Origin: Caulobacter sp. FWC26
GTDB lineage: Bacteria; Pseudomonadota; Alphaproteobacteria; Caulobacterales; Caulobacteraceae
NCBI RefSeq assembly: GCF_002742645.2
Contig: NZ_CP033875.1
Location: forward strand, 3,884,001 to 3,948,000
Direction of reading: 5' to 3'
DNA: 64,000 nucleotides
Numbering within the stretch: position 1 is the stretch's first letter; each line of letters begins with the position of its first letter. Under the pieces are notes generated by a model that was not told where the DNA came from, made no database searches, and saw nothing but the letters and a program-made list of their open reading frames with translations. Position numbers and translations under genes: made by a program. Shown here in pieces: positions 51,207 to 61,623 of the stretch.

Positions 51207-52436
51207 ATGGTCGAAACCCTCACCGCCAAGGAAGCGCGGCGCATCGCGCTGGCGGCTCAGGGATTCGGGCGACCGCGACCGGACAACCCCGGCCGCAGAC
51301 ATCTGCTGTCCACCATCGAGGCGCTCGGCGTGGTGCAGATCGACTCGGTCAACGTGGTCTCGCGCTCGCACTATCTGCCGTTCTTCTCCCGGCTGGGACC
51401 TTATGATCGCGGTCTGCTTGAGGATCTGGCCTGGGGGCGCAAACCCGCCCTGGCCGAATACTGGGGGCACGAGGCGTCCTTGACGCCGCTCGCCACGCAC
51501 CCGTTCCTGCGCTGGCGCATGAAGGACGCCCAAGACGGGGTTGGGGTCTGGAAGAACGTCGCCAAGTTCCTGCGGAGCCATGCCGACTTCATCGATCAGG
51601 CCCTCGAGGCCGTCGACCAGCGCGGACCGCTGGCCGCGTCCGAACTGGATCTCGGCGCAAAGGGCGCGGGCGGCTGGTGGGGCTGGAGCGAGGGCAAGCG
51701 GGCGATGGAGTGCCTGTTCTGGACGGGGCGGCTGACCACCGCCACCCGCCGCAACAGCTTCGAGCGGGTCTATGGCCTGCCCGAGCGTGTCCTCCCCAAG
51801 GCGATACACGAAGCCCCGACGCCGTCCCGCGACGAAGCCTGTCGCGCCCTCCTGATGATTTCCGCCAAGGCCATGGGCGTGGCGACCGAGCGCGACCTGC
51901 GGGACTACTTCCGGCTCGGCCTCGTCGATGCGCGCCAGGGCGTGGCCGCCCTGGTCGATCAAGGCCTGCTGACCCCGGTCGCGGTCGAGGGCTGGGATCA
52001 GCCCGCCTATCTCTGGCCGCAGGCGCGGCGTCCTCGGTCGATCAAGGCCAACGCGCTGTTGTCGCCGTTCGACAACCTGATCTGGTTTCGCGAGCGGACC
52101 GAGCGCATGTTCGGCGTCCGGGTTCGCCTGGAGATTTATACGCCGGCCCATAAGCGCACTCACGGCTACTACGTCCTGCCCTTCTTGCAGAACGAGGCGA
52201 TCACCGCCCGGGTTGATCTGAAGGCCGATCGGAAGGCGGGAGTCCTGCGGGTTCTCGCCGCGCACGCCGAGCCGGCCGCCGACGGCGACACCCCTCGCGC
52301 CCTGGCCGAGGAACTGAGCCTGATGGCGGGATGGCTCGGGCTGTCCCGCGTCGAGGTGAAACCGGTCGGCGACTTCGCCCCCGTCTTGGGTTCGGCGATT
52401 GACGAACAGAGCGAACTCGGCTCGACCCGACTGTAA
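51207..52436 (+). CDS. YcaQ-like winged-helix protein (DNA glycosylase family)
   Basis: A 409-residue HTH_42 (YcaQ/AlkZ) protein. Start ATG at 51207 (MVETLTAKEARRIALAAQGFG). It has the winged-helix core LLSTIEALGVVQIDSVNVVSRSHYLPFFSRLG and the QxDxx-like catalytic patch (VVQIDSV), then SPFDNLIWFRERTERMFG and GYYVLPFLQ. Members repair interstrand crosslinks. The role here is inferred from family. Confidence 0.9.
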   Translation: MVETLTAKEARRIALAAQGFGRPRPDNPGRRHLLSTIEALGVVQIDSVNVVSRSHYLPFFSRLGPYDRGLLEDLAWGRKPALAEYWGHEASLTPLATHPFLRWRMKDAQDGVGVWKNVAKFLRSHADFIDQALEAVDQRGPLAASELDLGAKGAGGWWGWSEGKRAMECLFWTGRLTTATRRNSFERVYGLPERVLPKAIHEAPTPSRDEACRALLMISAKAMGVATERDLRDYFRLGLVDARQGVAALVDQGLLTPVAVEGWDQPAYLWPQARRPRSIKANALLSPFDNLIWFRERTERMFGVRVRLEIYTPAHKRTHGYYVLPFLQNEAITARVDLKADRKAGVLRVLAAHAEPAADGDTPRALAEELSLMAGWLGLSRVEVKPVGDFAPVLGSAIDEQSELGSTRL

Positions 52437-52593
52437 ACCATTGTAAAAATGCCGCCTCAGGTCGAGCGTGCAATGGCGGAGCAAGGTACAGATGACTGGC
52501 TGGACGCCTGCTTGTCGCCCCACCGACGGCCGGACGACCGCGGCGCGTCTCGCTCCCCCGCGGGGCGCGCCACCTCCCAGCTTAAGTGAGCAT

Positions 52594-53304
52594 ATGAAAG
52601 TCGCCCTGCTCGACGACGACCAGAGTCACAACGCCCTCGTCGCTTCGGTTCTGGATCCGGCCGGCTTCACCTGCACGAGCTTCACGACGCCCTCTCGCTT
52701 GCTGGCCGAGTTACGCAAGCAGACCTTCGATCTCATCATCCTGGACTGGAACATGCCCGAGTTGTCGGGCGTGGAGACGCTGAAGCTGCTGCGTGAGGAT
52801 CCCCTCACCGCGCCGCCCGTCCTGTTGCTGACCAGCCGCTCGGTGGAAGCCGATCTCGTCGAGGGCCTGAACGCCGGCGCCGACGACTATATCGTCAAGC
52901 CGCTACAGCCTCAGGTGCTGCTAGCTCGCGTGAACGCTGTGGTGCGGCGTATTCATCGCCCCCCGAGCCAGCCGCAGCCCGAACAATACGGCCAGTACCG
53001 GCTGGATCCCGGGGCGCAGACCGCCAGTTGGGATGGACGCGTCGAGACCCTGACCCCGAAGGAGTTCCAACTGGCGTCGCTTCTGTTCAGCAACCTTTCG
53101 CGTCCCCTGTCCCGCGAGTACCTGCTGCGACGCATCTGGGGCCAACGACCCGACCTGGAGACCCGGACGCTGGACGCCCACGTCTCCCGTCTGCGGTCGA
53201 AGCTGCATCTTCGCCCGAACAACGGGTTCCGGCTGAGCACCGTCTATGGCTTCGGCTACCGCCTGGAAGCATGCGACCCGGACACTACGGGCGAGGGAGA
53301 TTGA
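52594..53304 (+). CDS. OmpR-family response regulator
   Basis: A 236-residue OmpR/PhoB regulator. Start ATG at 52594 (MKVALLDDDQSHNALV). Receiver with phosphoacceptor D51 (LIILDWNMPELSG), Thr in LLTSRSVEA, Lys in IVKPLQPQ. The C-terminal winged helix has LTPKEFQLASLLFSNLSRPLSREYLLRRIWG and TRTLDAHVSRLRSKL. It opens a three-gene cassette, 2 bp before the LysM-FecR gene. Confidence 0.93.
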   Translation: MKVALLDDDQSHNALVASVLDPAGFTCTSFTTPSRLLAELRKQTFDLIILDWNMPELSGVETLKLLREDPLTAPPVLLLTSRSVEADLVEGLNAGADDYIVKPLQPQVLLARVNAVVRRIHRPPSQPQPEQYGQYRLDPGAQTASWDGRVETLTPKEFQLASLLFSNLSRPLSREYLLRRIWGQRPDLETRTLDAHVSRLRSKLHLRPNNGFRLSTVYGFGYRLEACDPDTTGEGD

Positions 53305-53306
53305 CC

Positions 53307-54644
53307 ATGTCCAGGGCGGCTACAGCGCGCCTCGCGGCGCTTGCGCTGTTGGGAGCGGCGACGGCGCGGGCGGAAACGGCGCCTGTCGATCCTCCGGTGG
53401 CCTACATGGTCAAACCAGGAGACACGCTGATCGGCCTGGGACGCGCCTACCTGAACCGTCCGAGCGACTATCGTCGGGTTCAGAAAGCCAATGGCGTGAC
53501 CGAGCCCCGGCGGCTGCGTCCGGGCTCCCGGCTCGCCATCGACCCGAACTTGCTGAAGTCGACGCCGATCGCCGCGACGCTGTCGGCGCTGACGGGGCCC
53601 GTGCAGATCGAGACCAACGGCCAGCGGATACCCGGCCGCGTGGGCATGTCGCTGTCGGAAGGGCAGTGGATCATCACGGGTCCTGGCGCTTTCGCGACCT
53701 TCGAGCTTGAGGACGCCTCACGCGTCACCCTGCCCTCGAACACCCGCGTGCGGATCGCCAAGCTGCGCCAGACCTTGCTGAACAACGCGCCCCAGCGCGT
53801 CTTCCAGCTCGATCAAGGCAAGGGAACGATCTCGGCCACGCCCACGCCGACGCCCGGGGCGCGGTTCGAGGTGCGCACGCCGGTTTCGGTGTCGGCGGTG
53901 CGCGGCACAGAGTTCCGCGTCGCTGCGGCGGCCGACAGGGCCCAGACGGAGGTCCTGAAAGGCGCCGTCGGGGTCGCCGCAGGCGAGACCGTCTCGGACG
54001 CCCCGCCCATCGCGGCCGGCTTTGGCGTCAGCGCTTCGGCGAACGGCGTCAGCGCCCCCGTCGACCTGTTGCCCGGGCCCAAGCTGGGCGCGGGCGGCCA
54101 GACCCAGAGCGACGCGCTGGTTCGTTTCAGCCTGGAACCTGTCAAGGGCGCCGCGTCCTACCGCCTGCTGCTGGCGCGGGACGCGGGCTTCGTCGACATT
54201 TTCGCCGAGGCCACGACCCAGGCGACGTCCCAGGAGAAGCCGAACGCGGACTTCGGCCAGATCGCGAACGGCACCTACTTCGTTCGGCTCACCGCCATCG
54301 ACCCTGGCGGGCTGGAGGGGTTCCCGGCCGACTACAGCTTTGACCGCGACCTCGACACCCTGGACGCCGCGTCGCCCAATGACACCCGCCAGGGGAAGCA
54401 TCGCAGCTTCCTGTTCCGGTGGAGTTCCGCCGGCGACGGGGTGCGGAACTACCGCTTCCAGATGTTCGCCGAAGCTGACCCAAAGACCCCGATCGTCGAC
54501 CAGCCCGGCCTGACTGAACCGCGACTGACGCTCACCGATCTCGCGCCCGGGGCCTACACATGGCGGGTCAGCGCTCTGCGCTTCAAGGACGGCGTGATGA
54601 CGGAAAAGCAAGGGCCGCCGCAGCAGTTGCAGATCGGGAAGTGA
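53307..54644 (+). CDS. Exported LysM-FecR domain protein
   Basis: A 445-residue protein with a Sec signal (MSRAATARLAALALLGAATARA). LysM domain at about residues 33-78 (YMVKPGDTLIGLGRAYLN...GSRLAID) for peptidoglycan binding. FecR-type domain about 95-205 (ITGPGAFATFELEDASRVTLPSNTRVRI, VSVSAVRGTEFRVAAA). The C-terminal half is repeat-like beta structure (SFLFRWSSAGDGVRNYRFQMFAEAD). Middle gene of the cassette and probably its periplasmic ligand or sensor. Confidence 0.88.
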   Translation: MSRAATARLAALALLGAATARAETAPVDPPVAYMVKPGDTLIGLGRAYLNRPSDYRRVQKANGVTEPRRLRPGSRLAIDPNLLKSTPIAATLSALTGPVQIETNGQRIPGRVGMSLSEGQWIITGPGAFATFELEDASRVTLPSNTRVRIAKLRQTLLNNAPQRVFQLDQGKGTISATPTPTPGARFEVRTPVSVSAVRGTEFRVAAAADRAQTEVLKGAVGVAAGETVSDAPPIAAGFGVSASANGVSAPVDLLPGPKLGAGGQTQSDALVRFSLEPVKGAASYRLLLARDAGFVDIFAEATTQATSQEKPNADFGQIANGTYFVRLTAIDPGGLEGFPADYSFDRDLDTLDAASPNDTRQGKHRSFLFRWSSAGDGVRNYRFQMFAEADPKTPIVDQPGLTEPRLTLTDLAPGAYTWRVSALRFKDGVMTEKQGPPQQLQIGK

Positions 54645-56917
54645 CGGCGTCCTCCACCCGTCCGCCCCGGCTGCAAGGACGCCGAGCCTCCTGGTTCTGG
54701 CTGGCCGTCGTCGCGAGCCTGGCGCTGGCCGTCGTCGCGGCGCGCGCGCCCAGCCGCCTGGACAGTCTCCTGTACGACGTCTTGACCCGCGCCAATGCGC
54801 GCCCCGCCGACGACTCGATCCTGATCATCGATATCGACGAACGCAGCCTGGCCAGGTTGGGCGCCTGGCCGTGGGCCCGCGACAGGCACGCCCGGATGAT
54901 CGACCAGCTCGATCAGGCGGGCGCTGGGACGATCGTCTACGATGTCCTGTTCAGCCAACCCTCTCCAGACCCCGCTCAGGACCTTGCCCTCGGCGAAGCC
55001 ATCAAGCGATCCGGACGCGTCTACCTGCCGGAGTTCCTGACCGATAGCGGCCAGAACGCGCCGCCCCGTATCGTGAGCTCGATCCCTGAGATCGCCCAAG
55101 GCGCGGCCGGTGTCGGTCTGGCGCACGTGCGCTTCGACAACGACGGCGTCGTGCGGCGCATGGCGCCGTTCGAGGCCGACGGTCCAAACCTCCGCCCTGA
55201 TCTGATGACCGTGGTCCACCGCGCCACCCGACCGCCGGGCTCACCGGATGTCACCCGGAGCGACGCCCAAACCTTGCTGATCCCCTTCGCCGGACCGCCG
55301 TCCATCTACCGACATGTCAGCTTCGTCAGCGTGTTGGAGGGCGAGGTGCCCAGAGAGCTGATCGCCGGGCGTACGGTGTTCGTCGGCGTCACCGCGCCAG
55401 GCCTCGGCCCGGCCTTTCCGACGCCTGTGACGCCCGACGCCGCCAGCATGACCGGCGTTCAACTACAGGCGAGCATCCTCGACGCCCTGCGACGAGGACA
55501 GATGATCAAGCCGGCGGAGTCGGCGAGCCGCGTGGGATTCAGCCTGACCCTGCTGTGGCTGCTGCTGATCGGGTTCATCGCCCTGCCGCCCCGCGCGAAT
55601 CTCTTGCTGACGATGGGCCTGTGCCTTGTGGCGCTGGGCTACTCGGCCGCCCTCCTCTGGCTGGCCCATGTCTGGCTTTCGCCGATCGCCACGGTGATCG
55701 GCCTGATACTGGTGGCGCTGGTCTGGGGGTGGGGGCAGTTGAGCCGGGTCAGCGACCTGATGGGGCGGGAACTGGCGCGCGTGCGGTCGATCGTGAGGGC
55801 GCGCGGGGCGAAGCCGGCGGCCTTCCAGGGCGACGTCATCTCGCGCCAAGCCTCCAGCCTCGGCGAGGCGATCACGCACATGGACGATCTGCGCCGCTTT
55901 TCCGCCGACGCCTTGTTCAGCCTACCCGACGCCACCTTGGTGGCGGACGCCCACGGCCGGGTGATCGCCGCGAACGCGGCCGCCCAAGCCCTGTTTGGAC
56001 CCCATCAGACCGCCTTGAACGGCGCCTCTATGGCCGACCTGATCAATCTGCTGGATCCGCTCGGGCGACGGTTTGAGCTCGACTGGCCGCACGCCACCGA
56101 CCAGCAGGACCCCGTCGATCTGCATCTGCCGGACGGCCGGACCCTGCAGCTCCAGACCGTGTTCCGGCGTGACGACAACGGCGCGCCGGCCGGGTGGATC
56201 GTGCGGTTGGCCGACATCTCGATCCTGACCGCCGCCATGCGCCAGCGGGAGCAGGCGCTGCAGCTTCTGACGCACGACATGCGCTCGCCCCAGACTTCGA
56301 TCCTGGCCTTGCTGGCGACGACGCCGGACCTGCCGAGCGAAACCGCCGAGCGGATCGCGGCCTACGCCCGCCGCACCCTCGCTCTGGCCGACGGCTTCGT
56401 TCAACTGGCCCGCGCGGAGGTCACGCCTGTTTCCCTGGAGCCACTCGATCTGGCCGACGTGGCGGTCGAGGCGATCGACGAGGTCTGGCCTCAATCGGTG
56501 CAGCGGAAAATCCGCATCGAGCAGGTCGGCGGCGACACGCCCCTGATGGTGCTGGGCGATCGTGGCGTACTGGCGCGCGCCTTGGTCAATCTGCTGGGCA
56601 ACGCCGTGAAATACAGCCCGCCCGGCTCCACGATCACCGTCACCCTGTCCGAGCAGGCTTCGCCGAGCGGCCCGGTGGTCAGCGCCGCCATCGCCGACCA
56701 GGGGCCGGGCTTGTCACGCGAGGAGGCCGCCTCCGCCTTTCGGGCCTTCCAACGGTTCGAGCGTCCGGGTCAAACCCTGGCGGGCGGCGGCGTCGGACTT
56801 GGACTCGCCTTCGTTCAGGCGGCCATCGCGCGTCATGGCGGAGAGGTGTCCTGCCGCAGCGAACCCGGCGTCGGCGCCGAATTCACCGTCCGCCTGCCTC
56901 GACACGGAGTCGGATAG
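54641..56917 (+). CDS. CHASE2 sensor histidine kinase
   Basis: A 758-residue kinase. Start GTG at 54641 overlaps the stop of the LysM-FecR gene (GTGA). One N-terminal membrane segment, then a large periplasmic CHASE2 domain (about 40-280, ARADDSILIIDIDERSL-like), then three membrane segments (about 290-370). A PAS domain (about 420-520), HisKA with H545 in LLTHDMRSPQTSI, and an HATPase_c domain (N box LVNLLGNAVKYS, GPGLSREE, GGGVGLGLAFVQAA). Partner of the OmpR-type regulator. Confidence 0.93.
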   Translation: MTASSTRPPRLQGRRASWFWLAVVASLALAVVAARAPSRLDSLLYDVLTRANARPADDSILIIDIDERSLARLGAWPWARDRHARMIDQLDQAGAGTIVYDVLFSQPSPDPAQDLALGEAIKRSGRVYLPEFLTDSGQNAPPRIVSSIPEIAQGAAGVGLAHVRFDNDGVVRRMAPFEADGPNLRPDLMTVVHRATRPPGSPDVTRSDAQTLLIPFAGPPSIYRHVSFVSVLEGEVPRELIAGRTVFVGVTAPGLGPAFPTPVTPDAASMTGVQLQASILDALRRGQMIKPAESASRVGFSLTLLWLLLIGFIALPPRANLLLTMGLCLVALGYSAALLWLAHVWLSPIATVIGLILVALVWGWGQLSRVSDLMGRELARVRSIVRARGAKPAAFQGDVISRQASSLGEAITHMDDLRRFSADALFSLPDATLVADAHGRVIAANAAAQALFGPHQTALNGASMADLINLLDPLGRRFELDWPHATDQQDPVDLHLPDGRTLQLQTVFRRDDNGAPAGWIVRLADISILTAAMRQREQALQLLTHDMRSPQTSILALLATTPDLPSETAERIAAYARRTLALADGFVQLARAEVTPVSLEPLDLADVAVEAIDEVWPQSVQRKIRIEQVGGDTPLMVLGDRGVLARALVNLLGNAVKYSPPGSTITVTLSEQASPSGPVVSAAIADQGPGLSREEAASAFRAFQRFERPGQTLAGGGVGLGLAFVQAAIARHGGEVSCRSEPGVGAEFTVRLPRHGVG

Positions 56918-56920
56918 ATC

Positions 56921-57418
56921 CTATCGCGCCTTGGAGACGCTGAGCGCGTCAACCAACAGGTCCGCCACCTGCGCCGGCGTCTCGCGCCTGGTGCGGATCG
57001 AGGACCAGGCCAGGGTTCCGCCGTCGCGTGCGTTGATAACGGCCAGGGTGACGACACGCGCTTTTCCGCGCTGCCCCCACAACCGCCACCACGGCGCTTC
57101 ATCGGGCGCGCTGCGCCAGGCGTTTTGATCCAACGCGCCCACGGCGCTCGAGACCCCAACGGTCGGGAGCGGCTGGGCGACGCCGACCTGAACCAGATAC
57201 ACGGGCTTTTCCGTGTTCGCTGCGGCGCCTAGCCGGCTCAAGACCCCGATCTCGACCGCACGGGCGTACGTCGCCGCCTCGCCATCGGTCTGACCTGGAT
57301 ATGCGGCGACCGCCGCCCCCTTCATCGACGCGATATCGCCCTGACCAACCGCGCGGGGCGAGGCGCAGGCGCCGAGCAGAAGGCCGCACACCGCCAGGGC
57401 GAAAACCGGGTGACGCAT
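56921..57418 (-). CDS. Lipoprotein of unknown function
   Basis: A 165-residue lipoprotein. Signal with lipobox LLLGAC (MRHPVFALAVCGLLLGAC), Cys acylation site. The mature part has VYLVQVGVAQPLPTVGVS and VVTLAVINARDGGTLAWSS and resembles small envelope lipoproteins of DUF4136 type, weakly. It ends 4 bp from the kinase stop (convergent). Function unknown. Confidence 0.8.
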   Translation of the reverse strand: MRHPVFALAVCGLLLGACASPRAVGQGDIASMKGAAVAAYPGQTDGEAATYARAVEIGVLSRLGAAANTEKPVYLVQVGVAQPLPTVGVSSAVGALDQNAWRSAPDEAPWWRLWGQRGKARVVTLAVINARDGGTLAWSSIRTRRETPAQVADLLVDALSVSKAR

Positions 57419-57617
57419 GATCTCAATCCTCTTGAGTCGTACGAAACGACCCTAGCGCGGGCGACTCCAAAGATCATCCACGCGCCCACGACCCGGGCGG
57501 CGCCAGAGCGGCCGGAGACGGGAGTTGACCCTTCCGTAAGTTTGCATCGTTATTCCGCCCCAAAAATGGATATTGCTTCGCTGTGAGGGGCTACGGGCTT
57601 CGGACTTGGGAGATCTT

Positions 57618-58145
57618 TTGAGCGATACGGACTCGGACAAGGCCGCGCTGCTGCGCCTGTACGAGGAGAAGCGCGCCAATCTGGTGCGCGTCTTTGCGGC
57701 GCGCCTGAATTCACGAGCCGAGGCCGAGGATCTCGTACAAGATCTCTTCATCCGCATCAGCGGCCTGGAGGTCCTGGAGCCGATCGACAATCCCTCCGCC
57801 CTGCTCCATCGCATCGGTTCAAACCTGATGCTCGACCGCCTGCGCAGCCAGAAGCGCTCCGGAGCGCGCGACACCGACTGGCGTGACGTGAACACCACGG
57901 TGCTGGCGGGCCAGGAGGTCGCCGACCAGCCCTTGGCGGACGAGGTCGTCAATAGTCGCCAGCGCCTGCAGGCGCTGGTCAAGGCGGTCGAGGATCTGCC
58001 CGAGAAGACCCAGCAGGCGTTCCGGCTGCACAAGCTGGAGGGCCTCAGCCATGCCGAGACTGCACGGCGAATGAACATCAGCGTCAGCACTGTCGAAAAG
58101 CACATCAGCTCGGCCCTAAAGACCCTGACGAGGCGACTGCGTTGA
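57618..58145 (+). CDS. ECF sigma factor, FecI-type
   Basis: A 175-residue ECF sigma factor. Start TTG at 57618 is preceded by GGGAG; TTG at 57573 is an alternative. Region 2: EDLVQDLFIRISGLE with NPSALLHRIGSNLMLDRLRSQKR. Region 4: LPEKTQQAFRLHKLEGLSHAETARRMNISVSTVEKHISSALKTLTRRL. It is followed by fecR-type and TonB-receptor genes, the usual cell-surface signalling set. Confidence 0.93.
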   Translation: MSDTDSDKAALLRLYEEKRANLVRVFAARLNSRAEAEDLVQDLFIRISGLEVLEPIDNPSALLHRIGSNLMLDRLRSQKRSGARDTDWRDVNTTVLAGQEVADQPLADEVVNSRQRLQALVKAVEDLPEKTQQAFRLHKLEGLSHAETARRMNISVSTVEKHISSALKTLTRRLR

Positions 58146-58230
58146 TTTATGCAATGCTAGATGGGGGACGGAAACGGTCGGCGCCGTCGACCCTCTTGGG
58201 GATGATGGATCCTTGCGGGAGCCACGCCGG

Positions 58231-59208
58231 ATGAGCCGGTCTGCGCAATATCTTCAGGAGGCGGCCGACTGGCTGACCCGGTTGCAGCGGCCGGAAGCCG
58301 GTGAAGCCGACTGGCTTGCGTTTGACGCCTGGCTGGAAGAGCCCGGCGCGCGCGAGGCCTATGACGCCGTCCAAGCCGTCGACGAGGAGATCTTCGAACG
58401 TGGAGCGGCCTTGCGGGGAGCGTTGACGGAACCTCGGCGCGTCGCGGGCAAGCGGCCCTTCTCGGTCGACTGGCGCTGGCTGGGCGGTCTGGGCGCGACA
58501 GCGGCTGCCGCCGCCATCGCCTTGACGCTCGCACCGTGGGGAGAACTTCTGCCCCAGCCAGACACGCTCTATTCGACCGCCAAGGGCGAGAGCCGGGTCA
58601 TCCAGCTGGCGGATGGCAGCCGCATCGACCTGAACACCGACTCGAATCTGTCGGTTCGACTGGAAGACGACGCTCGGCGCGTCACCATCCACGATGGCCA
58701 GGCGCTGTTCGATGTGGCGCGTGATGAGCGCCGTCCTTTCCTGATTACCGTCGGCGACGAAACCGTCCGCGTGCTCGGCACAAAATTCGACGTGCGCCGT
58801 CGGGACGGCCGGCTGGCCGTGACCGTTCTGCGCGGCGCGGTCGAGGTGTCGACCGAAGGCGAGGGCAAGCCCGTCAGGCTACGCCCCGGACAGATGCTCG
58901 AACATGTCGACGGCTCCGGCGCCCCCGTGGTCCGGACCGTGTCGACAGAGGAGCAGGTCAGCTGGCGCTCCGGGCGCCTCGTCTATCGAGACCAAACCCT
59001 GGGGCGGGTCGTCAGCGATCTGAACCACTACTTCGAGCGGCCGCTTCGTCTTGAGGGCGTGAGCACGGCCAATCTGCGCTTCTCCGGCGTATTGATCGTG
59101 GATGGTCAGGATGCGATGGTTCGCCGCCTCACCAGCCTGATGCCGATTTCGGCGACGCCGACCGATGACTCCATTCTTCTGCGCGAAAGATCTTCCCCGG
59201 CGAAGTGA
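58231..59208 (+). CDS. FecR-family anti-sigma regulator
   Basis: A 325-residue FecR protein. Start ATG at 58231 (MSRSAQYLQEAADWLTRLQRPEAGEADWLAFDAWL, the sigma-binding N-terminal domain DUF4880). Single membrane segment (GGLGATAAAAAIALTLAPWG), then periplasmic FecR domain GESRVIQLADGSRIDLNTDSNLSVRLEDDARRVTIHDGQALFDV, and a C-terminal STN-contacting part. It holds the sigma factor and receives the receptor signal. Confidence 0.95.
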   Translation: MSRSAQYLQEAADWLTRLQRPEAGEADWLAFDAWLEEPGAREAYDAVQAVDEEIFERGAALRGALTEPRRVAGKRPFSVDWRWLGGLGATAAAAAIALTLAPWGELLPQPDTLYSTAKGESRVIQLADGSRIDLNTDSNLSVRLEDDARRVTIHDGQALFDVARDERRPFLITVGDETVRVLGTKFDVRRRDGRLAVTVLRGAVEVSTEGEGKPVRLRPGQMLEHVDGSGAPVVRTVSTEEQVSWRSGRLVYRDQTLGRVVSDLNHYFERPLRLEGVSTANLRFSGVLIVDGQDAMVRRLTSLMPISATPTDDSILLRERSSPAK

Positions 59209-59229
59209 CGCCTCGCGGCTGGTTCGATC

Positions 59230-61623
59230 CTGAAACGAGCCCGCCTCCTCGTCGCCGCTGGCCTCTTTGGCCTCGGCGTCCAAGGCCCCGCCGGGGCTGC
59301 GGAAACCCGCGCGCGCCTGGATATCCGCAAGTCCACCGTCGGCGAGACCCTGATTGAACTGGGCCTTCGCCTGGGCGTCAGCATGGGCGGGGTCGAGGCC
59401 TGCAAGGGCCCCGGCGCGCCGCTGGTCGGAACGTTCAGCCTGCGCGAGGCGCTGGACCGGGCGACCGCCGGAAAGGGGTGCGCGTACAGTTTCGTGGACG
59501 CCAGGACGATCCGATTCTCGGCGCTTCGTCCGGCCTTGCCGCCTCGCCCCGCCGGAACGACACCGGCTCGCGTGGTCATAGAACCCATGGCGCCGCTCGC
59601 GCCCCTCACCATCAGCGCCGGCAAACGACCACTTCGTCTGGGTAGCCTTCCGGGCGGGGTCAGCGTGATCAACGCACCACAGCTTCGAGACACCGGCGCG
59701 AGCGACACGAATTCAGTGGCGCGGCAAACGGCGGGTTTCATCACCACCAACCTGGGAGCCGCGCGAAACAAGATCCTGTTGCGGGGCCTTTCGGACGGCA
59801 CCTTCACGGGACGCACGCAGTCGACCGTCGGGACCTATCTCGACGACCTGCCCATCAACTACAACGCCCCGGATCCTGATCTGCGGCTGATCGATGTGGA
59901 TCGCGTCGAGATTCTGCGCGGCCCTCAGGGCGCGCTGTATGGCGCAGGCTCGCTGAGCGGCATCTATCGGATCGTGACCCGCCCCCCGGAACTGGGGGTC
60001 GCCTCGACCTCGGTCGGCGCCACGACCGCCAGCACCCGGTCTGGCTCGCCCAGCTATAAGCTGGAGAGCGTGATCAACCTCCCCACCGGCGATAACTCTG
60101 CGGCCAGAGTCGTCGCCTACCATGATGTGGACGGCGGCTATCTGGACGACGTCAATCTGCGCCTTTCCAATGTCGACCGAACGACGCGAAGGGGGGGGCG
60201 GGCGGCTTGGCGGGTCGATCTTGGCGACTGGCGGATCAAGCTGGGCGCCGCTCGGCAGAGTGTGTCCTCAAAGGACACCCAATACGTCACCCTGGCGCCC
60301 GGGGGCCCTCGACGCGCTAACCAGGTGCGCGAAACCCACCGCAATCGGCTGGGTCAGGCCTCCCTCAACATCAGCGGCTCCGGCGATTGGGGCCAAATCG
60401 ACTCCGTGACTGGCTATGTGCGCCACAACTACGCCAGCCGCTACGACGCCACCCTGTCGCTCAGCCAGTTCTCCCAAACCGCTGTCGAACTGGGCGTCTA
60501 CGACGAGTCGACGAAGCTTCGGATGGCGGTGCAAGACCTTCTCTACACGGCGCCCGCACGGGGCCGCCTGCGTTGGATGCTCGGCGCCTTCGCCGCGAGG
60601 AGCCTGGAAGACGGCGCGTCGGACCTTCGGGCGCGCGCCGGCGGCATGACCCGCGGCGTTTACAACGAACAGCGCGAGGATCGTCTGAACGAGCACGCCC
60701 TGTATGGCGAGGCCACCTATGATCTTGGCGGGGGCTGGAAGGCTGCGGTCGGCGGACGGGCGTTCAAAACGATGGTCCAGACACGTTCTCACGTCCTGGC
60801 TCCGCCGCCCGGACAGTCCCGTGATCTCGATCGGAAAGCCTCGTTCGACGGCTTCTCGCCGAAGCTATCCCTGCAGCGAGACCTGTCGGGCGGCGGTCTG
60901 ATCTACCTCCTGAGTTCGGAGGGCTATCGCGCGGGCGGCTTCAATTCCGGCGGTCTTCTGGCGCCCGGCGCGACGCGTCGGGTTTTCCGACCCGACCATC
61001 TGCGCAACTACGAGATGGGGCTGGCGCTGAATCCCTGGCGCGGACGCATGAATCTTCGGGCCGCGCTGTTCATGGTGGATTGGCGCAATATCCAGACCGA
61101 CCAGTATTTCGGATCGGGGCTGTCCTACACGGCCAATGTCGGCGACGGCCGTAATCGCGGTCTCGAGATCGAGGCCACCTGGCGGGCCACCCCCCGACTG
61201 GTGGTCAGCGGCAACGCGCTGTTCAACCGCCCTGAGCTGACCAGGATCGAACCCGGTTTCGGCATCGCCGGCGCCGCCAGCCTGCCCGGCGTGCCCGATG
61301 TTTCGTTCGGCGGCCTGGCCAGCTACCAGCGGCCGCTGACGCCCCGCGCCTCGCTGTTGCTGACCGCCGAGGCAGGCTATATCGGCCAGTCTCGACTGAC
61401 CTTCGACCCGCGATACTCGCCGTCGATGGGCGGTTACTATACCGGCAAGCTGTCGGCCCAACTGCTGGGCGAGAGATGGCGCGCGGCGCTCTTCGTCAGC
61501 AATCCATGGAACAGTTCGAGCGACACATTCGCTTACGGCAACCCGTTCAGCTTCGGTCAGGTGCGTCAAGTCACCCCGCAGCGCCCCCGCACCTGGAGCC
61601 TGTCACTCGCCGCTGACTTCTAG
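59230..61623 (+). CDS. TonB-dependent receptor with STN signalling domain
   Basis: A 797-residue receptor if it starts at CTG 59230. The first in-frame ATG (59383) would remove the signal peptide (KRARLLVAAGLFGLGVQGPAGAA). N-terminal STN domain (LDIRKSTVGETLIELGLRLGVSMGG), plug (VARQTAGFITTNLGAARNKILLRGLSD, VDRVEILRGPQGALYGAGSLSG), and a 22-strand barrel ending in ADF. The STN domain talks to the FecR protein. The ligand is probably a siderophore or other iron chelate; not provable here. Confidence 0.92.
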   Translation: MKRARLLVAAGLFGLGVQGPAGAAETRARLDIRKSTVGETLIELGLRLGVSMGGVEACKGPGAPLVGTFSLREALDRATAGKGCAYSFVDARTIRFSALRPALPPRPAGTTPARVVIEPMAPLAPLTISAGKRPLRLGSLPGGVSVINAPQLRDTGASDTNSVARQTAGFITTNLGAARNKILLRGLSDGTFTGRTQSTVGTYLDDLPINYNAPDPDLRLIDVDRVEILRGPQGALYGAGSLSGIYRIVTRPPELGVASTSVGATTASTRSGSPSYKLESVINLPTGDNSAARVVAYHDVDGGYLDDVNLRLSNVDRTTRRGGRAAWRVDLGDWRIKLGAARQSVSSKDTQYVTLAPGGPRRANQVRETHRNRLGQASLNISGSGDWGQIDSVTGYVRHNYASRYDATLSLSQFSQTAVELGVYDESTKLRMAVQDLLYTAPARGRLRWMLGAFAARSLEDGASDLRARAGGMTRGVYNEQREDRLNEHALYGEATYDLGGGWKAAVGGRAFKTMVQTRSHVLAPPPGQSRDLDRKASFDGFSPKLSLQRDLSGGGLIYLLSSEGYRAGGFNSGGLLAPGATRRVFRPDHLRNYEMGLALNPWRGRMNLRAALFMVDWRNIQTDQYFGSGLSYTANVGDGRNRGLEIEATWRATPRLVVSGNALFNRPELTRIEPGFGIAGAASLPGVPDVSFGGLASYQRPLTPRASLLLTAEAGYIGQSRLTFDPRYSPSMGGYYTGKLSAQLLGERWRAALFVSNPWNSSSDTFAYGNPFSFGQVRQVTPQRPRTWSLSLAADF

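Follow-up and report, generated by a model that had tools for sequence, protein, structure and literature searches.

In this work we have investigated three adjoining genes in a 64,000-nucleotide stretch of the Caulobacter sp. FWC26 genome (the window), which encode an OmpR-type response regulator, a protein with a LysM and a FecR domain, and a sensor histidine kinase with a CHASE2 domain. This trio is a BiofilmReg-type system, a kind published earlier in another bacterial order. According to PMC5192318 (2016), the BiofilmReg operon of Burkholderia contaminans consists of a regulator gene, a LysM-FecR gene ('PBP'), a CHASE2-PAS histidine kinase gene and a DUF4136 gene; biofilm formation was reported to be lost after a plasposon insertion in the regulator gene, a periplasmic co-sensing model was proposed, and a three-gene form without DUF4136 also exists. 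The survey described there covers beta- and gammaproteobacteria, with exact orthologs stated to occur only in Burkholderiales. A first-pass annotation had presented the trio as the best candidate in the window for an undescribed system, which cannot be upheld because the gene order, a phenotype and a model were already in print; its presence in Caulobacter therefore extends the range of the published system. Judging by title and the start of the abstract, we found no paper about the Caulobacter locus. What is new is the occurrence in Caulobacter, together with candidates for an operator and for a target operon and a tally of how often FecR and CHASE2 genes are paired. We consider it probable that the trio is an envelope-sensing two-component system of the BiofilmReg type with a separate periplasmic co-sensor.

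The coordinates, strands and junctions given in the first-pass annotation were all correct, and Pfam domains confirmed its assignment of the three proteins. The FecR gene begins with an ATG at 53307, after a gap of 2 bp, and its TGA stop codon (54642-54644) shares 4 nucleotides, GTGA, with the GTG start of the kinase gene at 54641. An alternative in-frame ATG at 54560 would give a longer kinase, but we favour the GTG because the spacing of -4 recurs among several Caulobacter orthologs; in others it is +3 to +19. The regulator has retained both of its phosphorylation residues. The second protein carries LysM at residues 33-78 and FecR at 122-221, the latter recognized as the periplasmic FecR fold, and ends in two Fn3-like domains (255-445); its relatives of solved structure, searched by sequence, were three weak matches to LysM-type proteins (best TsaP, E 0.004). 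In the kinase, CHASE2 (28-313; 168.9 bits against a Pfam cut-off of 26.3) is followed by PAS_4 (426-527), which lies before the kinase core as is usual in BiofilmReg, and by HATPase_c (640-754). The HisKA match is weak (E 0.075); H545 and N650 are invariant among 62 aligned sequences, and G-boxes are present at 686 and 717. Among solved structures, the best 60 of 85 rows for the kinase alignment all fell in the PAS/kinase half, and the matches of a structure search with the kinase model were dominated by the kinase core (rows 488-757), with little coverage of the CHASE2 fold.

FecR genes beside CHASE2 genes

Matches to CHASE2 occurred in 201 of 397 genomes across the phylum, in 108 of 199 within the family and in 27 of 44 within the genus; a FecR-kinase pair of the trio kind was present in 17 of the 44. 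We scanned 201 CHASE2 open reading frames (194 unique after removal of 7 duplicates) with FecR models built for this analysis. The loci were taken from the best-scoring CHASE2 matches plus some lower ones, so low-scoring CHASE2 proteins are under-represented. Output classes were assigned by motif, with which Pfam agreed in the six cases compared: two of SpoIIE type, three cyclases and one serine/threonine kinase. Some loci had short flanks of 1.5 kb, which can miss partners.

A search for conserved co-occurrence, as suggested in the first-pass annotation, recovered the gene order of the trio in other genomes. A FecR gene stands directly upstream of 57 of the 66 CHASE2 kinases on the same strand (35/44 with long and 22/22 with short flanks), which supports the earlier description of an envelope-facing two-component cassette. 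At the 35 long-flank kinase loci the gene before FecR was a regulator gene on the same strand in 28 and on the other strand in three, and no regulator gene was seen in four; around the long-flank kinases, 37 FecR matches lay within 1 kb, seven at 1-2 kb and two beyond. The home genome has 12 FecR matches, eleven of which adjoin a sigma gene of the extracytoplasmic function (ECF) type (one inside the window, 10 in other stretches of the genome), whereas the twelfth, that of the trio, adjoins none and lies beside the only CHASE2 match in the genome. The trio protein has no DUF4880 match but a LysM domain instead. The proposal that FecR here goes with a two-component system rather than with a sigma factor is thus supported by its place in the genome.

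Pairing is not confined to kinases. With long flanks, 31 of 77 CHASE2 cyclases had a FecR gene at a distance of up to 1.6 kb (9 upstream, 13 convergent, 9 in other arrangements), as did seven of eight SpoIIE-type proteins, all seven convergent; with short flanks FecR was found at 4 of 33 cyclase and 0 of 4 SpoIIE-type loci. As FecR genes thus lie near CHASE2 kinases, cyclases and SpoIIE proteins, their distribution points to FecR as a partner of CHASE2. In seven FecR proteins encoded near CHASE2 proteins other than kinases, Pfam showed no DUF4880, and one of the seven had RTX-type repeats. A 1639-amino-acid protein with FecR and RTX-type matches is encoded upstream of a CHASE2 cyclase gene (L149:8365-13281).

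Repeats, leader and convergent operon

Four features of the locus were absent from the first-pass annotation: the two Fn3-like domains, an operator-like repeat, a leader hairpin and a convergent lipoprotein gene (Table 1).

Table 1. Features of the trio locus, in window coordinates
Feature	Position	Strand	Remarks
Predicted operator of the regulator, direct repeat TGTAAACCATTGTAAA, period 10	52432..52447	+	146 bp before regulator ATG
12-bp hairpin, loop CTCCCC	52542..52571	+	leader of regulator gene
OmpR/PhoB-type response regulator	52594..53304	+	236 amino acids; Pfam Response_reg and Trans_reg_C; D51, K102
LysM-FecR protein, two Fn3-like domains, export-signal-like start	53307..54644	+	445 amino acids
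CHASE2-PAS sensor histidine kinase	54641..56917	+	758 amino acids; GTG start
Convergent small lipoprotein, perhaps distantly DUF4136-like	56921..57418	-	member of predicted target operon in relatives

The direct repeat TGTAAnnCnTTGTAA upstream of the regulator gene is conserved and in most relatives examined also stands before the convergent lipoprotein operon; in the leader alignment of the regulator gene, the Caulobacter-type rows have retained TGTAAAnnATTGTAAA. The second copy, before the convergent operon that follows the kinase and in the same orientation, was present at 11 of 14 Caulobacter loci and at both loci of another genus. Allowing at most one mismatch, the refined motif TGTAANNCNTTGTAA gave 28 matches in 16 trio loci, where 0.05 would be expected by shuffling; 27 of the 28 fell at the two sites, and one of 19 control loci had matches. 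Three genomes outside the leader alignment (G458, G467, G490), where the fetched flank was short and only the FecR and kinase genes were seen, carry the regulator-side repeat as well. Their second sites lie on the kinase's other side, but the motif was refined only after those of G458 and G467 had come to light.

In the home genome TGTAAANNNNTGTAAA has two exact matches, one in the trio leader and one at a MarR-like gene, and three matches with one mismatch. At L221:9503-10143 the repeat precedes the MarR-like gene by about 50 bp, with a LysR gene close by; judged only by eye, the neighbours resemble MsrA and a ZIP transporter, so this stretch may be an acquired island. Exact matches outside the locus occurred in G000 (the site at the MarR-like gene), G490 and G562, at G490 with no clear gene start, and we claim no third regulon site.

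Homologs of the lipoprotein adjoin the kinase in Caulobacter trio loci. In several relatives the convergent operon encodes a small protein of about 120-135 amino acids, a short membrane protein and then the lipoprotein; the small conserved protein that heads it (for example L166:3317-3682 and L167:4158-4562) had no Pfam match, and we saw none in the window. The lipoprotein of the window (P0244) likewise had no Pfam match. Aligned with hhalign to lipoproteins that directly follow the kinase at three loci outside the class (L089 and L090 above the DUF4136 cut-off, L147 below it), it reached 94.8% in full and 53.8% without signal peptides, decoys giving at most 1.1%. A distant relation to DUF4136-type lipoproteins is therefore plausible from these alignments. 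In another lineage, too, a lipoprotein-like gene occupies this position: small and convergent, it adjoins a CHASE2 kinase gene and has an fn3 match below the cut-off (L157:5159-5557).

The leader hairpin is paired in 98.8% of the aligned cells. Four pairs are altered on both sides, a number reached by 3 of 500 shuffles, and its covariation score exceeds all 500, while the count of further pair types is unremarkable (reached by 203 of 500). It is the sole match in the genome within three mismatches, and no 12-bp stem was found at 11 loci of other lineages; stems at L162 (11 bp) and L188 (10 bp) beat most shuffles and are unrelated to it in sequence. The hairpin may function either at the RNA level or as a palindrome in the DNA. 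An Rfam match to c-di-GMP-II-GAG within the LysM coding sequence (26.6 bits against a cut-off of 40) was taken as chance.

A proposed periplasmic co-sensor and its alternatives

In the mechanism that we infer, the three genes would be cotranscribed and the LysM-FecR-Fn3-Fn3 protein would be exported and anchored to peptidoglycan through its LysM domain. The FecR fold serves as the periplasmic signalling module in anti-sigma regulators, PupR among them (6ovk); here it would dock on the CHASE2 domain and set kinase activity by the state of the wall or envelope, the presumed cue. The kinase would phosphorylate the OmpR-type regulator, and the phosphorylated regulator would bind the TGTAA-N5-TGTAA repeats and thereby control the trio operon itself and, in the majority of relatives examined, the convergent lipoprotein operon. 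Control through CHASE2 is the best reading, resting on conservation and fold.

Could the FecR protein instead be a parallel periplasmic factor, a wall-binding structural or biofilm protein that shares the operon while CHASE2 senses a ligand of its own? We regard this as unlikely, though it is the most serious of the alternatives, and several results count in its favour or against our reading. Nine of the 66 CHASE2 kinases lack a FecR gene immediately upstream (L179, L180, L193, L191, L181, L110, L112, L195 and L114; at L112 one lies 618 bp away). None was nearby at 46 of 77 long-flank cyclases and 29 of 33 short-flank ones, and none lay within 1.6 kb of the six CHASE2 serine/threonine kinases, so CHASE2 can work without FecR. 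No FecR-CHASE2 fusion occurred in the 201 CHASE2 reading frames, nor in the Pfam lists among the 120 proteins listed of 306 and of 203. For S. meliloti, PMC5498481 reports that the FecR-domain gene smc02177, a Clr target, is dispensable for perception of the plant signal; this pathway depends on CHASE2 cyclases (PMC13001267). For our reading, on the other hand, speak the pairing across kinase, cyclase and phosphatase outputs in both gene orientations and the signalling role of the FecR fold. When 29 of the 31 upstream same-strand neighbours of FecR-less CHASE2 cyclases and serine/threonine kinases were scanned, HD, GAF and FHA domains recurred and no shared periplasmic family appeared among the 25 listed of 47 families. 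Four kinase loci of the family (L179, L180, L191, L193) have the regulator gene directly upstream of the CHASE2 kinase gene and no FecR, and offer a natural FecR-free comparison.

The ownership of the repeats also has to be weighed. The copy at 52432-52447 can be read as GTAAA-N5-GTAAA at the trio's own promoter and so fits the CpxR consensus GTAAA-N4-8-GTAAA, as quoted in PMC6391269; the trio would then be a target of another, for example CpxR-like, regulator. Counting against our own reading, no second repeat was found in the window (including upstream of the lipoprotein gene), at L010/L184 or at L015/L172, none was found at the regulator genes of nine other loci (eight with FecR; L181 without), and a search for a sigma-70-like promoter found none. 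Their presence at these loci is also partly by construction, because the motif was derived from them. Yet one would expect a global regulator's box to remain in genomes that lack the trio, and exact matches numbered three in the 17 genus genomes without CHASE2 against 33 in the 19 genomes with the system, 30 of the latter at the locus; the reversed motif gave two in all 36. We therefore hold a foreign owner to be improbable. Since these genomes have few other copies of the repeat, the conserved regulon seems to be small and local. More remote still is the idea that the trio FecR serves an ECF sigma, FecR and TonB receptor gene set at 57573-61623 and stands beside the kinase by accident. This set does begin 0.66 kb downstream of the kinase, and several Caulobacter relatives have a second FecR match downstream of the trio; but a separate FecR that begins with DUF4880 (58213-59208) belongs to this set, where the trio protein has LysM, and at L011, L166 and L173 the trio FecR accompanies the kinase where no second FecR was found.

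How far may the co-sensor reading be taken? It is conceivable, though we would not yet bet on it, that FecR-fold periplasmic proteins are general partners ('ligands') of CHASE2 across histidine kinase, cyclase and SpoIIE phosphatase outputs, and that in Caulobacter the pair governs an island complete in itself, with a regulator that acts on little beyond its own operon and the convergent lipoprotein operon. A FecR neighbour that recurs across outputs is a concrete protein candidate for recognition by CHASE2 and, if general, would answer what this domain senses. Caulobacter is tractable and not a pathogen, and the predicted operator with two target promoters makes its system directly testable.

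Comparison with known systems

The ligand of CHASE2 is called unknown in PMC5192318 and PMC10581220. BiofilmReg and the Caulobacter trio share genes, order and domain make-up, and BiofilmReg too has a predicted long leader. They differ in the lipoprotein gene, which is fourth in the operon in BiofilmReg but convergent in Caulobacter, where in relatives it has its own repeat and small genes. The biofilm phenotype, which lends the system practical weight, was reported for B. contaminans. A Campylobacterota cluster described in PMC9239204 combines a CHASE2 adenylate cyclase with FecR, a TPR protein and a phosphodiesterase; there too the gene of a FecR-domain envelope protein adjoins that of the CHASE2 receptor, the output being cyclic AMP. 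In PMC4439547, a CHASE2 cyclase gene follows mtxA, the product of which is an Fn3-like and TPR protein. From the FecR/PupR anti-sigma regulators the trio protein differs in having LysM and Fn3-like domains and neither DUF4880 nor an adjoining sigma gene. With CpxAR the trio has in common the GTAAA-N5-GTAAA type of repeat and an OmpR-type regulator, but in NCBIfam the regulator (126.9 bits) and the kinase (67.6) fall far below the CpxR and CpxA cut-offs of 341 and 486, and the CHASE2 sensor and the FecR co-protein set it apart.
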